The translations under genes and the position numbers were made by a program. This document shows positions 8,990-38,681 of a DNA stretch of 64,000 nucleotides, piece after piece (position 1 is the stretch's first letter; the number at the start of each line of letters is the position of its first letter). Under the pieces are notes generated by a model. It had not been told where the DNA came from and ran no database searches. It saw nothing but the letters and a program-made list of their open reading frames with translations. This DNA comes from Polyangium spumosum (GTDB lineage: Bacteria; Myxococcota_A; Polyangia; Polyangiales; Polyangiaceae): positions 62,001 through 126,000 of the forward strand of contig NZ_WJIE01000006.1 of the NCBI RefSeq assembly GCF_009649845.1, written 5' to 3'.

Positions 8990-10441
8990 ATGAAGAAATA
9001 CGCTGTTTTGTTGGCATCCGGACTGCTCGCGTCCGGTTGTGGTCTCGTCAAGGTCAACACGAACATCCCGGGCCTCGAGGGCCTGAACACGTCGGGCGGC
9101 GGATCGGAGACCCCGAGCGTGGGGCCGCTCGGCGGCTTGCCGTACGACGAGGACGAGGTCGGCAAGGCCGTGCTCGCGACGTTCAAGTCGTGGGATTACA
9201 CGTCCTGCGAGAACGCCGAGTGCGTGAATGCCTTCAAGAAGAAGGCCGGCGTGACGGACTACAAGGACAAGGGCGGGTACATCTACCAGTTCAACCCGCG
9301 CCGCACGCTGAAGAACCCGGACCCGACCTGGCTGACCGGCTGGGACAAGATGTCCGACGACGAGAAGTTCAACACGGCGGACGAGACGTACCAGGCGCTG
9401 ATCGTGGCGGCGTCGCGCCGGACGTGGCTGGCGAAGTGCCACGCCGATTACGCCGCGCTCGACAAGGAGCTCCGCGCGAACGACACGAAGTGGGCCTCCG
9501 AGATCGAGCAGGCGTCGAAGATCCCGAGCCCGTACAAGCGGATCGGGGCGCTGCTCGACCTGGAGCAGATGGCCGACAAGAATGCCCGGGCGAGCAACCA
9601 GTACCTCGACAACCTGATGAACAACGTCGGGTTCCGGAGGGACCTGCGCGTCGCGCTGAAGGCAGCCTACGATTCCACGGGGCGCGATTACCTCTACGCG
9701 ATCGAGGGCCGCGCGCCGCGCGGCGACGAGGTCCGCGCCCGGCTCGACCCCACGACGGAGCGGGACCTCTATTGCATTCGCGCGGCCGGGTACGGGACGC
9801 CGAAGACGCCGGAGTTCAAGGGCGCGCCCGCGGGCAACGCGTACACGGAGCGGGGCGCGAAGTACGTGAAGCCGCTGTTCTCGGAGGAGACACGCAAGAA
9901 GCTCGACGGTCTGCGGGAGAAGGAGGCGCGCAAGTCGATCGAGGAGGTGCGGCCGGGCAAGTTCTCGCAGGTGTACATCTCGACGGTGGCCAAGGGCGAA
10001 GGCGAGATCGCGGGGCACCCGAAGCTCGGTTATTACGGGGGGTTCGGCGAGGTCAAGAAGGTCACGCAGAACGGCGGGAAGACCGAGCTCGAGATCGTGC
10101 AAAACAGCTCGAACGAATACCCCTACAATTGCGTGGAGACGAACAAGATCCACTCGATCCAGAATGGCCGGATCGTCTATCGAGAGATCTGCCAGTGGGG
10201 CAAGAAGATCCACGACACGACGGTGCGCCTCACGCTCGGGGAGCTGCCCGAGGGGGTGAAGATCCAGGTCGGAGACAAGGTCGAGGGCTACACGATCGTG
10301 CAGAAGCACGAGGAGAAGAAGCTCGCCGATACGCAGGCGCTGAAGAAGAGCTCCGAGCTCTGGGTGCTGGAGCTCGAGCACCTGTCGAAGGTGCTCCGCA
10401 AGGAAAAGGGCAAGGACAAGGTCGTCGGGCGGTGGTTCTGA
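8990..10441 (+). CDS. lipoprotein, tandem paralogue 2 (483 aa)
   Basis: Signal peptide MKKYAVLLASGLLASGC gives a lipidated Cys17. It is co-linear with the preceding paralogue over its full length, with shared blocks such as LPYDEDEVGKAVLATFKSWD, NPRRTLKNPDPTWLTGWD and LGELPEGVKIQVGDKVEGY. The ATG at 8990 is used rather than an in-frame codon at 8966 because the lipobox must lie ~17 residues in. The carrier of this pair probably benefits from dosage or diverged specificity, but nothing in the sequence says for what. Confidence 0.88.
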   Translation: MKKYAVLLASGLLASGCGLVKVNTNIPGLEGLNTSGGGSETPSVGPLGGLPYDEDEVGKAVLATFKSWDYTSCENAECVNAFKKKAGVTDYKDKGGYIYQFNPRRTLKNPDPTWLTGWDKMSDDEKFNTADETYQALIVAASRRTWLAKCHADYAALDKELRANDTKWASEIEQASKIPSPYKRIGALLDLEQMADKNARASNQYLDNLMNNVGFRRDLRVALKAAYDSTGRDYLYAIEGRAPRGDEVRARLDPTTERDLYCIRAAGYGTPKTPEFKGAPAGNAYTERGAKYVKPLFSEETRKKLDGLREKEARKSIEEVRPGKFSQVYISTVAKGEGEIAGHPKLGYYGGFGEVKKVTQNGGKTELEIVQNSSNEYPYNCVETNKIHSIQNGRIVYREICQWGKKIHDTTVRLTLGELPEGVKIQVGDKVEGYTIVQKHEEKKLADTQALKKSSELWVLELEHLSKVLRKEKGKDKVVGRWF

Positions 10442-10460: not shown

Positions 10461-11039
10461 TTACTGAATCCCGCCCCACGGCCGGCTGGGAGGCAGGCTC
10501 GGAGGCGGCGCGCCGAGCCCCAATCCGCGACGCACGATGACATCGTCGGGGTCGATCTCCTCCACGAAGAGGAGGATCTGATCGACCTCGATGTCGTCGA
10601 CGTCGCCATTGGTCTTTTTCCCCGCGACGAGACAAACCTCCGAGGGCCCCCGCTCCAGGCGCACGGGAAAGACGGGCGAGGTCTGCGTGGAGAGCGGCGT
10701 GACCCCGTACGGGTCCCGCTCGAGCGTGATCCCCAGCGCGAAGGGCTTGCCGTTCACCGTGATCTGGTTGCTCAACGTCTCGGAGTTCCGGAGGTTGATG
10801 ACCTGCAGAAAGGCGTCGATCGCCTCCGGCACGTTCACGAGGGAGCAAAGGCGCGCAGCCGCGGCCATCCCGCTCGGGAAGTTCTGACTCCCGGCGCGGT
10901 TGTCCCCCAGATGCGCCGCCCCGTCCAGGAGGGCGATCGGTTGGCCAGGCGGGTACTTGCTTCGTGTCCCCGAGCCTCCACAACCGGCCAGCACGATCGC
11001 CCACGTACCCGCGAGGAGGAGGCCACGATAAAAATCCAT
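10461..11039 (-). CDS. putative lipoprotein, 192 aa
   Basis: MDFYRGLLLAGTWAIVLAGC is a lipoprotein signal with Cys20. The mature part carries LGDNRAGSQNFPSGMAAAAR, a beta-rich central segment (ITVNGKPFALGITLERDPYG) and a Pro-rich end. No family is recognised. The ATG at 11039 is preceded by AGAAGAGAG, an acceptable ribosome site. It converges on the second lipoprotein paralogue (19 bp apart) and lies downstream of the tRNA operon terminator on the same strand. Confidence 0.8.
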   Translation of the reverse strand: MDFYRGLLLAGTWAIVLAGCGGSGTRSKYPPGQPIALLDGAAHLGDNRAGSQNFPSGMAAAARLCSLVNVPEAIDAFLQVINLRNSETLSNQITVNGKPFALGITLERDPYGVTPLSTQTSPVFPVRLERGPSEVCLVAGKKTNGDVDDIEVDQILLFVEEIDPDDVIVRRGLGLGAPPPSLPPSRPWGGIQ

Positions 11040-35471: not shown

Positions 35472-35515
35472 GGAGCGTTCTCGGCCGTGGGATTTGGCTT
35501 CGCGGCGGCCGCGAA

Positions 35516-35683
35516 GCCGTTGGGTTCGGTCGCGGACGCCTCCGCGGTGGCCGCAGAGCCGTTGGGTTCGGTCGCGGACGCCTTCGCGGTGGCCGCAGAG
35601 CCGTTGGGTTCGGTCGCGGACGCCTCCGCGGTCGCCGCAGAGCCGTTGGGTTCGGTCGCGGACGCCTCCGCGGTCGCCGCGAA
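35516..35683. repeat. four tandem 42-bp units
   Basis: Copies start at 35516, 35558, 35600 and 35642, each beginning gccgttgggttcggtcgcgg and ending with ggtcgccgcaga-like bases; copies differ at one or two positions. Because 42 is divisible by three all frames stay open, but no start, ribosome site or codon pattern favours translation. A degenerate fifth block follows (35702-35735). Its core resembles the repeats at 3469-3550. Confidence 0.85.
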
Positions 35684-35757
35684 GCCGTTTCCCACCCGAA
35701 AGACGCCTCCGCGGCCGCCGCGAAGCCGTTTCCCATCGACGGCGACGGCTTCGGGGC

Positions 35758-35968
35758 CGCCTCCCCTCAATGCACCCCGCCCACGAGCCACGCATACCCC
35801 GGCACGAGCACCTCCTCCGGGCTCGCGCCGCCCTGGGTCGCGGGCGCCGTGCCGCGGGCGTCGCACGAGAGGCGGAAGCCGTGGTCGCCGAAGACGAAGA
35901 GCAAGGTGCGCGGCGGCGAGCTCTCGATGAAACGCGAGATCACCTGCGCCGCCTCGTCCGCGATGCCG
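35758..35968. repeat. 211-bp direct repeat, distal copy
   Basis: Identical to 36828-37038 apart from two bases. It carries the last ~66 codons of the PglZ-fold gene. Together the two copies flank the NYN cassette in direct orientation. Confidence 0.95.
35767..35968 (-). pseudogene. orphan 3' fragment of the PglZ-fold gene
   Basis: On the minus strand this reads in frame as the C-terminal ~66 residues of the gene at 36837-38681 (VISRFIESSPPRTLLFVFGD ... VPGYAWLVGGVH, stop). It has no start of its own and follows the NYN gene by 23 bp. It is a displaced or duplicated gene end and not a functional gene. Confidence 0.9.
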
Positions 35969-35991
35969 GGGCGAGCGGGATCAGGCGCCCA

Positions 35992-36666
35992 TCATTGCGC
36001 GAATTTGTTGGGGTTCGGCGAGGTGGATCGAAGCCCGTCGATGTGCTCGTTCAGCGACGGGTGGACGTGGTGCCACATGGGATCCAGAACAAAATCGATG
36101 CCCTCGCGACGGGCCAGCTTGGCAGCCGGGACGAAGTCACTGTCGCCTGCAACGAGGACGATCTGGTCGACGAGCTTTTTGTAAGCCAGCGACGCGATGT
36201 CGAGGCCGATCTTCATGTCGACGCCCTTCTGGCGCGCGTCATACGTGAAATCGTCGTCCGTGAGCGCCTCGAATCGTATCGTCCCGCCGACGAGCTCCGA
36301 TAATTTTGCCGGCTTGATCTTCCACGCCGCGTCGTCGGACAGGTGCCCGAGTCGGAGCGCGACCTTGCGCTGGGTCTTGATCTCTTCGTGTAGAGCCAGG
36401 CGAAAGAGAGCCGTCTGCGTCTTCGAGAAATCAATGCCACGTCTCGAAATCGGATAGTGCGCCCGCTTCAGAATCGGCGGGCAGTCATAGAAAAAAATCC
36501 GGTACAGATCATACGCGGGCCGCCCCTGGCGGTCGTTCAGGTGAAAACACGCCATCTCGTGCATCGTCCGAGCGACGACCTTGGGGTCGGTGGCGTCACG
36601 ATCCCGGTAGACGTAACGGAAGCGCTTCAGGAAGAAGCCACCATCGACAAGAATGGCCGTTGACAT
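35992..36666 (-). CDS. NYN-domain (LabA/DUF88-like) putative ribonuclease
   Basis: A 224-aa protein of the NYN family, a PIN-like RNase fold. Acidic catalytic positions are Asp8 in ILVDGGFF, Asp150 in GVDMKIGLD and Asp175/Asp177 in LVAGDSDFVPA, in the expected order. Bases are noticeably more AT-rich than in neighbours, and it lies between two 211-bp repeats, signs of recent arrival. The ATG at 36666 is in TTATGTCAACG with no Shine-Dalgarno. It has a consensus promoter and a terminator-like leader (see those entries). Target RNA is unknown. Confidence 0.88.
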   Translation of the reverse strand: MSTAILVDGGFFLKRFRYVYRDRDATDPKVVARTMHEMACFHLNDRQGRPAYDLYRIFFYDCPPILKRAHYPISRRGIDFSKTQTALFRLALHEEIKTQRKVALRLGHLSDDAAWKIKPAKLSELVGGTIRFEALTDDDFTYDARQKGVDMKIGLDIASLAYKKLVDQIVLVAGDSDFVPAAKLARREGIDFVLDPMWHHVHPSLNEHIDGLRSTSPNPNKFAQ

Positions 36667-36682
36667 AACGAATCGCGCTACC

Positions 36683-36743
36683 AAAGAAAAACCCCCGGTC
36701 TCGGCACTCCCGTTATCGAGTAGGGAATGCGTACTACCGGGGG
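36683..36743 (-). terminator. leader hairpin with T tract (attenuator or small RNA end)
   Basis: On the minus strand CCCCCGGT (36743-36736) pairs with ACCGGGGG (36699-36692) around a 36-nt loop that has its own 4-bp stem; it is followed by TTTTTCTTT. Transcription from the promoter at 36756-36784 would start about six bases before the hairpin and end here as a ~65-nt RNA, or read through into the NYN gene 17 bp downstream. Confidence 0.7.
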
Positions 36744-36755
36744 CGGAATGTTTTC

Positions 36756-36784
36756 AGCTTAACTCGGGCTGACACACCTGTCAA
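36756..36784 (-). promoter_or_regulatory. promoter of the NYN leader
   Basis: On the minus strand TTGACA (36784-36779), 17-bp spacer, TAAGCT (36761-36756). This is a near-consensus sigma-70 promoter aimed at the leader hairpin and the NYN gene. Confidence 0.75.
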
Positions 36785-36827
36785 CAGGCTGCGACAGGCT
36801 GAGGCAACCGGAAAGACCGGCAGATCG

Positions 36828-37038
36828 CGCCTCCCCTCAATGCACCCCGCCCACGAGCCACGCATACCCCGGCACGAGCACCTCCTCCGGGCTCGCGCCG
36901 CCCTGGGTCGCGGGCGCCGTGCCGCGGGCGTCACACGAGAGGCGGAAGCCGTGGTCGCCGAAGACGAAGAGCAAGGTGCGCGGCGGCGAGCTCTCGATGA
37001 ATCGCGAGATCACCTGCGCCGCCTCGTCCGCGATGCCG
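36828..37038. repeat. 211-bp direct repeat, proximal copy
   Basis: The copy that forms the intact 3' end of the PglZ-fold gene. It differs from 35758-35968 at two positions, so the duplication is recent. Confidence 0.95.
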
Positions 37039-38681
37039 CCGAGCCGCTCGTCGAAGCCAGGGCCCACGCCGCGAAGGCGCGCCTCGACGAGGTCGAGCTT
37101 GAAGACCTCCTTCGTGCCGTACCGCTCGCGCCGGATCGTGGAGAGGGCGCGGCCACGGACGATGTCCGGCTCGGGGCCAGGCTCGGGCAAGGGGTCGCGC
37201 AGGCCCTCGGCGCCGCGGCCGAGCAAGGCGACCTGCGCCGGGGTGGTCGTGGGGAGCGCGCTCCAGAGCAAGGTGCGGTCGACGCAGACGGCGCGGCCCT
37301 GCAAGGTGGGCTTGAGGCGCGCCATCACGCGCTCGCCGAGGTCGAAGCGCAGGGCGTCGACGAGCAGGAGGCGCACGGCGCGGGCGTTGTTGAGGCGCGC
37401 GATCCGCGCCGCCACGTCGGGCGCGTCGAGGACCATGAGCGGGCGCTTGCCCGTCGCGCGGATGGCCGCGAAGCCCTCGGTGTAGCTGTGCTCGAAGGCC
37501 GTGCGGAAGCCGTCGACGACACGCTGGACCGAGCCGTCGGCATGGCCACGCGAGAGGGCGCCGACGAGGGGCATGTAGCGGGTCGCAAAGAGCCGATCGA
37601 TGACGCCGGCCGGCTTGGGCCCCCGGGCGTTGTCGAGGTCCATGGCGAAGGCGCGCCACTCGGCAGCCGAGAGGATCCGCTCGACCGGCGAGGGCTGGGC
37701 CGGAGGTGAAGGCGGCGCGAGGTCCGAGGGCAAGGGCGGCGGCGGAGGGAGCGTGTCGGCCGCCTTCGGGGCCGGCGCGGCAGCAGCCTCGGGCTCACGG
37801 TCGCGGTCGCGGTGCGCTTCGAGCGAGGGCGAGGAGGGCGTACGAGGCGGGCGCGGCGGCGGAGGGATCTCCACGGGCGGCGCCGCGTCCACGGGCGGCG
37901 GCGGGGTCGACTTGAAGGCGCGAGGCGGGGGGTCGACCGCGGGCGTGCCCATCGGCGTCGGCCGCGGACCCGCCCGCAGGCCCCGCAGCCGGCCGATCGG
38001 CGCCGATCGCTCGGCGGACGCGTCGGCCTCGGGCGCGGCGGAGTCGCTCGTGGCCGCGATGGGACGCACGTCACTCGGCTCGGCCTCGGGCGGGGGGGCC
38101 GGCGGGGTGAGCGGGGGACGCGCGACGACGCGGGAGTGCTCGGGAGGGGCGCGGCGCGTGGGGGCAGCGTCGGCGACGAGCTCGTCGAGGCGGACGGGCG
38201 CGAGGATCCGCAAGCCGCGGTCCCCCTCGTCGAGGACGAGCGCCACGGGGCCGGCCTGGGCCGCGTCGTTGAAGATGGAGAGGACGGCGCTGTCGGAGGG
38301 CCCGAGCGCGGGGGCGTCGCCCGAGGTGTCGGCGAGCGAGGCGAGCGGCGGCAAGGCGAGGGCGAGGCCGAAGGAGCCGAGGCCGCGGGCGCGGACGACC
38401 TGGTCGCGCAAGGAGGCGGCGCCGTCGGCGTCGACGCTCACGGACGGCGGGGGGGCGCCGCGCATGGCGAGGGCGCTCTCGACGGCCTCCTCGACCGCCT
38501 GGCGCAGCCGCCCCGGGGCCGGGGGGCGGTGGATGCTCGCCACCACGTAGCCGCGGCTGCGCAGCTCCGAGAGGAGCTCGGTCTTGCGGGAAGCGGCGAC
38601 GAAAAACGCGCCAAACGACGGTCTCACGGGCGGAGAGCCTTGAGGCGCGGGGGCCTGCACCAAGCGCATGGGAGGTCCCAT
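36837..38681 (-). CDS. PglZ/alkaline-phosphatase-fold protein
   Basis: A 614-aa protein. The N-terminal ~180 residues form an alpha/beta domain, then a long Pro/Ala-rich linker (~190-320), then a domain with metal-site motifs of the alkaline phosphatase superfamily: LLLVDALRFDLGERV (Asp442), LPTTTPAQVALLGRG and VFGDHGFRL (Asp576-His577), ending GGASPEEVLVPGYAW. This is the PglZ type known from BREX, but no other BREX gene is here, so a stand-alone hydrolase is likelier. Start may be ATG 38681 or 38669. Confidence 0.8.
   Translation of the reverse strand: MGPPMRLVQAPAPQGSPPVRPSFGAFFVAASRKTELLSELRSRGYVVASIHRPPAPGRLRQAVEEAVESALAMRGAPPPSVSVDADGAASLRDQVVRARGLGSFGLALALPPLASLADTSGDAPALGPSDSAVLSIFNDAAQAGPVALVLDEGDRGLRILAPVRLDELVADAAPTRRAPPEHSRVVARPPLTPPAPPPEAEPSDVRPIAATSDSAAPEADASAERSAPIGRLRGLRAGPRPTPMGTPAVDPPPRAFKSTPPPPVDAAPPVEIPPPPRPPRTPSSPSLEAHRDRDREPEAAAAPAPKAADTLPPPPPLPSDLAPPSPPAQPSPVERILSAAEWRAFAMDLDNARGPKPAGVIDRLFATRYMPLVGALSRGHADGSVQRVVDGFRTAFEHSYTEGFAAIRATGKRPLMVLDAPDVAARIARLNNARAVRLLLVDALRFDLGERVMARLKPTLQGRAVCVDRTLLWSALPTTTPAQVALLGRGAEGLRDPLPEPGPEPDIVRGRALSTIRRERYGTKEVFKLDLVEARLRGVGPGFDERLGGIADEAAQVISRFIESSPPRTLLFVFGDHGFRLSCDARGTAPATQGGASPEEVLVPGYAWLVGGVH

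Follow-up and report, generated by a model that had tools for sequence, protein, structure and literature searches.

The window analysed here, a stretch of 64,000 nucleotides from Polyangium spumosum, carries a gene for a NYN-fold nuclease between two direct copies of a 211-bp sequence (Table 1). The copies are identical at 209 positions (99%), with a spacing of 1070 bp. The upstream copy completes the intact reading frame of the neighbouring pglZ-like gene, whereas its downstream counterpart is left as an orphan, and the two mismatches (CGA/CGT and TGT/TGC) are both synonymous in the pglZ frame. The insert is poorer in GC than the window as a whole (69.6%), and in a scan by 859-bp windows moved in 100-bp steps, with those overlapping the insert included, a GC content as low as that of the insert was found in only 2 of 632. 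An earlier note on this DNA had already described the NYN gene between 211-bp copies of a gene end, the two mismatches, the 1,070-bp unit, the AT-richer composition and the complete host frame beside an orphan copy, and our analysis bears out these points; the structured leader RNA was absent from that note.

The NYN gene is the sole recognised gene within the insert. No integrase or other mobility gene was found between 35969 and 36827, where an ORF list with a minimum of 70 aa gives, besides the NYN gene, just two short overlapping frames, as the earlier note had also remarked for the integrase, and no restriction-modification cargo is present in the insert. The 10.8-Mb assembly holds one copy of the insert and one NYN gene of this family; a second NYN match in the assembly is a different protein, aligned in its C-terminal part only. 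Misassembly of the locus is unlikely, since the contig measures 821 kb and the two copies differ. The gene had also been credited with a promoter of its own, a claim that we could not confirm: a TTGACA hexamer is visible at 36779-36784(-), but a sigma-70 scan found no promoter. A 42-bp tandem array is located at 35498-35707, between a kinase gene and the downstream repeat copy.

Table 1. Features of the Polyangium spumosum locus and of two plasmids used for comparison
Feature	Position	Strand	Basis
Downstream repeat copy, orphan	35758-35968	-	Repeat search and comparison of copies
Upstream repeat copy, functional 3' end of the pglZ-like gene and a further 9 bp	36828-37038	-	Repeat search
Insert between the copies, 859 bp, 59.5% GC	35969-36827	-	Repeat search and GC scan
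Structured leader RNA (P1, internal loop GUA/GA, P2, U-run)	36685-36748	-	Model R1, 60.9 bits
Gene for the NYN-fold nuclease, start at TTG (230 aa) or at ATG 36666 (224 aa)	35992-36684	-	ORF and Pfam
PglZ-like gene, 614 aa, frame complete, 3' end duplicated	36837-38681	-	ORF list and profile searches
Plasmids that have lost NYN wholly or for the most part, leader kept in full or in part	L272 1408-1580; L273 1358-1407		

The host gene had been described as encoding a PglZ fold. This assignment is weak: the PADLOC PglZ model matches the protein at E 8.6e-4, there is no Pfam match and the NCBIfam score is far under the cut-off. The gene is present in all five congeners, with best segments at 91-97%, and the NYN protein of the window has no match in any of them. 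In the stretches compared, the pglZ-like 3' end is single in every congener, and the DNA downstream of it differs from that of the window. The cassette is not fixed, and no relative without the NYN gene had the doubled end, so that neither of the refuting conditions given in the earlier note was observed. The kinase gene lies 5-9 kb past the pglZ end in four congeners, and in the fifth it was not found within the 15 kb examined. Because the interval from pglZ to the kinase gene is filled with different DNA in the congeners, the pre-insertion junction of the window cannot be read. Two candidates for further copies were rejected: matches of 46 bp at 80-83% in two congeners, obtained in a search of genus DNA, and, in three congeners, a NYN-type protein of another kind, aligned at E about 1e-5 and over its C-terminal part alone.

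The comparison with congeners also bears on the origin of the repeat. Both copies in the window share letters found in none of the five congeners, and therefore the duplication arose within the lineage of the window's species; on these letters, we read the repeat as a target duplication and not as the end of a foreign replacement. At the first mismatch the downstream copy has CGT, as do three of the five congeners, and CGA of the upstream copy occurs in none; at the second, both states are found among congeners. That the gene end was doubled by chance, or by a repeat-driven process independent of the NYN gene, is very improbable. The tandem array just past the downstream copy would speak for such an origin, but 211 bp at 99% lie exactly around a foreign gene, the congeners are without both the NYN gene and the doubled end, and repeats are enriched at other NYN loci, as reported below.

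The window ORF matches Pfam NYN (E 2.5e-9). We compared its AlphaFold model (mean pLDDT 93.4) with known structures by VIA-align, and its nearest neighbours were the NYN domains of MARF1 and Vibrio VPA0982 (Z 16.2-16.5), followed by T5 flap endonuclease near Z 10. A plain Foldseek search with the model placed unrelated folds at the top and returned nothing at E <= 0.001, and a PDB sequence search with the NYN profile gave no match. Four acidic residues (D156, D162, D181 and D183) are invariant in both alignments and D14 is invariant or nearly so. The protein thus has the NYN RNase fold with its conserved acidic residues and is a putative RNase. Its family is PHROG 5783 (E 2.8e-92), for which no function is recorded and to which the protein of the lambdoid phage ev099 also belongs (E 1.5e-119). 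PADLOC models NYN and HEC-09 matched the window protein weakly, and PADLOC gave no match on the ev099 protein.

Directly 5' of the NYN gene there is a hairpin followed by a U-run, and similar hairpins precede most relatives. A covariance model, R1, was built on 25 leader rows, the window included, which a script had picked for the expected geometry; for this reason, the pair counts of this alignment lean towards structure. RNAalifold predicted 14 pairs on these selected leaders, 13 of them with changes on both sides, and their covariation score was 0.691 versus 0.300 after shuffling; sliding the partners destroys the score. Since the rows of this first alignment were selected, we repeated the test on an unselected set of 54 loci outside the model, taking the last 110 nt before the NYN match (82 in one locus). 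The same two-part hairpin was predicted, and all 12 of its pairs showed two-sided compensatory changes.

We then considered how closely the leader accompanies the gene. An R1 match adjoins the NYN gene in 70 of the 80 genome loci with the best relatives, 24 of these loci being in the model; among the 56 genome loci outside the model it is found in 46, and of the ten that have no match, two offer hardly any DNA upstream of the gene. R1 also matches the window, four of eight plasmid or phage loci and, next to the gene, 43 of 55 viral loci. In 1.35 Mb there are three other matches (L049, L068 and L081; loci are cited by number), that of L081 being at chance level, and in the window's genome the single match below E 3 is the leader of the window itself. 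At positions 3226-3291 of L049, from a Legionellales bin, we observed a leader copy with no NYN frame behind it, either a solo RNA or a remnant. A second leader RNA is located downstream of the NYN gene in L068 (10941-11000) and in L200 (3941-4000); the one in L068 has behind it what we take to be an integrase ORF.

The internal loop reads GUA/GA in 65 of 77 model matches, which, compared as letters alone, are the core letters of the bulged-G motif (sarcin-ricin, loop E). In Rfam, RF03535 (TEG147) matches the window leader and two leaders of relatives over the full length, at 24.2-31.1 bits. The window leader has the same hairpin as TEG147, with the AGUA/GAA internal loop; it differs in remaining under the gathering score of 56.1 (24.2 bits for the window, 31.1 for the best of ten relative loci), and in that the Rfam entry is limited to S. 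aureus. At the gathering threshold, no Rfam family was found at the leader in 19 relative loci. TEG147 is listed as a small RNA of S. aureus, and the passages on it do not connect it with NYN genes (PMC5826253). The leader is best read as a putative regulated terminator of the NYN gene, which a protein, a ligand or infection may operate.

The NYN family has a wide but patchy distribution. A scan of genome contigs gave 186 relatives, from which the best 80 were kept (46-67% identity), and the genomes or bins that hold relatives are named Proteobacteria, Acidobacteria, Clostridia, Omnitrophota, Rhodothermales and others. Relatives were also found on 167 plasmid records, 15 phage records and 179 viral-contig stretches. 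In one clostridial family group 15 of 348 genomes match, two of them weakly and one in part. In the phylum of the window, a match to PHROG 5783 of any length was found in 162 of 377 genomes; among the matches listed, those over the full length come from two genomes, the window's own and G550, and the others are shorter, mostly covering a C-terminal stretch. The suggestion that the unit is a minimal mobile cassette gains from these data: it is absent from the five congeners, it has relatives in many phyla and few full-length ones in its own (the two of 377 genomes just given, among the matches listed), and the same gene-plus-leader unit occurs between long repeats elsewhere.

To other NYN loci we applied a strong repeat criterion, namely at least 30 bp at 90% identity or more flanking the gene, with the window not counted. 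Strong repeats flank 8 of 76 NYN loci, versus 3 of 294 control ORFs of the same loci (p 2.2e-4), and the three control repeats measure just 30-32 bp. With a loose criterion the counts were 15 of 76 NYN loci versus 6 of 222 random places, a comparison to which we prefer the ORF control. The remaining 68 loci have no strong repeat. One of ten additional Lachnospiraceae loci passes (L165, with a 227-bp repeat at 92%), as does one of 55 viral loci; pooled with the 76, these sets gave 10 of 141 (p 0.0011 against the control). None was found around the eight plasmid or phage loci L127-L134. Such duplicated flanks, for which the earlier note had proposed a search, recur at NYN loci, yet they are not the rule.

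In the stretches examined, L067, L071, L080, L083, L084, L097 and L114 have exactly two copies of the repeat, one on either side of NYN, and the repeat of L058 is dispersed; a search of the whole genome found just two copies for L080 and for L084. The strong cases of these eight loci together with the window have repeats of 33 to 211 bp. In ten flanked elements, among them the window as well as L117 and L196, whose repeats are short of 90%, the stretch between the copies measures 859-1390 bp. We compared the left and right 40 bp of these ten elements, and the ends are no more alike than shuffled ones, 136 and 30 of 200 shuffles reaching the score. The nature of the repeats varies: that of L114 is presumably the 3' end of tuf with its terminator, that of L117 begins at the stop codon of an S24-type repressor gene, that of L080 is a terminator-like palindrome with what we take to be uvrB behind it, and some are plain terminator-like sequence. 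In L083, 79-bp repeats at 9426-9504 and 10895-10973 surround the NYN gene and end in a tRNA-like part, with a short integrase-like ORF nearby; this locus is perhaps a mini-island, in which the tRNA-like repeat could be an att site.

A site without the NYN gene was found for L080 in its genus mate G487, where a single repeat copy (94% over 31 bp) joins the near flank, matched at 91% over 162 bp, to the far flank, matched at 96% over 274 bp. About 400 bp of further flank are also different in G487, and its contig starts inside the near flank. As in the congeners of the window, the sequence is single where NYN is lacking. For L084, 61 genomes gave nothing usable besides its own two repeat copies, and for L114 the search of 37 genomes gave scattered short matches.

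These data allow the origin of the elements to be evaluated further. The locus had been seen as the footprint of elements that integrate into gene ends and restore them. On a reading of this kind, the cassette would be the remnant or satellite of an island that used a gene end as attachment site and brought the restoring copy. The repeats of L114, L078 and L083, which contain a gene 3' end or a tRNA-like piece, and the integrases or serine recombinases adjoining some NYN genes, would agree with this; but the insert of the window has no integrase, repeat lengths are variable, with some repeats terminator-like, the ends hold no common sequence, and both window copies have letters found in none of the congeners. 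We therefore rejected an integrase or transposon as the agent and consider a gene-end element quite unlikely. Insertion with a long target duplication fits better than an element of the integrase kind.

The differences between copies would agree with another route, in which a donor circle or linear fragment, carrying a gene 3' end and the NYN gene, recombined into the gene end of the recipient, the two copies being two functional alleles. All three base changes in the coding part of the L114 repeat are synonymous, and the L196 copies, at 83% identity, both keep frame and stop. Because of these coding-type differences, as in the window, where both changes are synonymous, such a homology-assisted capture keeps a place among the explanations, as a somewhat unlikely one. 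The differences are few, however, and change limited to the functional copy would give the same pattern; moreover, the CGA of the upstream copy, as already noted, is found in none of the five congeners, and the CGT of the downstream copy in three of them.

Several NYN genes lie in contexts of phage-exclusion and defence genes, and they may have a protective role. In ev099 the NYN gene lies between a LexA-family (cI-type) repressor and N, the interval which in lambda holds rexA and rexB. The slot is the same as that of lambda rexAB, whereas the genes are unrelated, and exclusion by NYN is putative. On a Thermus plasmid (L129, 136-6708) the NYN gene is located between a DrmD-like helicase and a DrmMI-like methylase, as identified by DISARM models, and overlaps the start of the DrmMI-like gene. 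S24 repressors are found upstream of NYN in L078, L105 and L117, and recombinases, integrases or serine recombinases among them, downstream of it in L067, L071, L105, L224 and L254.

Plasmids also show turnover of the module. An apparently empty X. citri plasmid was rejected as a never-occupied site, as the leader and a short piece of NYN are still there, and so was a Campylobacter plasmid that keeps part of the leader; because these pieces remain, we read both as losses. The third plasmid of the pair comparison (L274) is without the cassette and has other DNA at the site.

These losses are relevant to the possibility that the module is an addiction unit resembling toxin-antitoxin systems, with the leader as an RNA antitoxin that restrains the RNase and with loss killing the cell. 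Type III toxin-antitoxin systems have the order RNA, terminator, RNase gene, which the module resembles, and leader and NYN stay together across phyla. Nevertheless, the RNA is a single short unit, the NYN fold, with MARF1 NYN and VPA0982 as best neighbours, is probably not that of ToxN, and plasmids have lost NYN while retaining all or part of the leader, which disfavours strong addiction; we hold an addiction unit to be unlikely.

Considering all the above, we find it fairly probable that the window records the recent insertion of a horizontally spread one-gene accessory module, composed of leader RNA and NYN RNase, behind the pglZ-like gene, by host recombination, with a 211-bp target duplication, an RNA switch and an anti-phage role. 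The sequence itself confirms the insertion of the RNA-plus-nuclease unit with its target duplication, and also shows the absence from congeners, the conserved leader, the NYN fold with its acidic residues, the wide and patchy spread, the recurring repeats and the lack of shared ends or of a recombinase; function and the chemistry of insertion are inferred. The module would not transpose by itself: given no mobility gene and no shared ends, we infer that host recombination inserted it and duplicated the target, possibly by illegitimate or homology-assisted joining during the uptake of foreign DNA, in the way proposed for restriction-modification genes (PMC3031569). The leader RNA may act as a terminator-like switch, so that NYN would be kept low and made on cue, and the RNase may limit the growth of the phage or the infected cell. 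We propose that phages, plasmids and chromosomes acquire and lose NYN because of this effect, and that the RNA-led NYN cassette is probably a small anti-phage module. A bolder version, unlikely as it stands, is that leader and NYN together are an immune or toxin system of an undescribed, RNA-controlled type, in which the leader mimics the target of the RNase, for example the sarcin-ricin loop of 23S rRNA, and is decoy, sensor and switch in one, and which would pass from genome to genome as a bare gene, duplicating its target on entry.

Insertion with long target duplication of variable length has been inferred for restriction-modification genes from genome comparison, in the part of that work concerned with it (PMC3031569). 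The window resembles those cases, as far as described there, in having a defence-type unit between long direct repeats of variable length (PMC3031569), and differs from them in its cargo, where a lone NYN gene led by a conserved RNA takes the place of a restriction-modification pair; the NYN elements hold 0.86-1.4 kb between copies in the ten measured. The parts of the module are of known kinds, and we found no report of the RNA-NYN pairing in the literature searched; the main text of a paper on the svsR sRNA (PMC12803456) does not contain the term "NYN". The finding joins a NYN nuclease family spread over bacteria, plasmids and phages, a small RNA found ahead of most of its members, and insertion with a long target duplication without a mobility gene, three features that we did not find together in the literature searched. 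The leader offers an immediate test of regulation and the rexAB slot one of phage exclusion, and the repeats give a handle on the transposase-free movement of defence-type genes.

Finally, E. coli genomes gave no match to the NYN gene of Leminorella. The NYN region of ev099 was matched in 274 of 5426 E. coli genomes, in 74 of them over at least 80% of its length; 28 of the 40 E. coli matches listed cover just 57-58% of the region, many of them named O157:H7.
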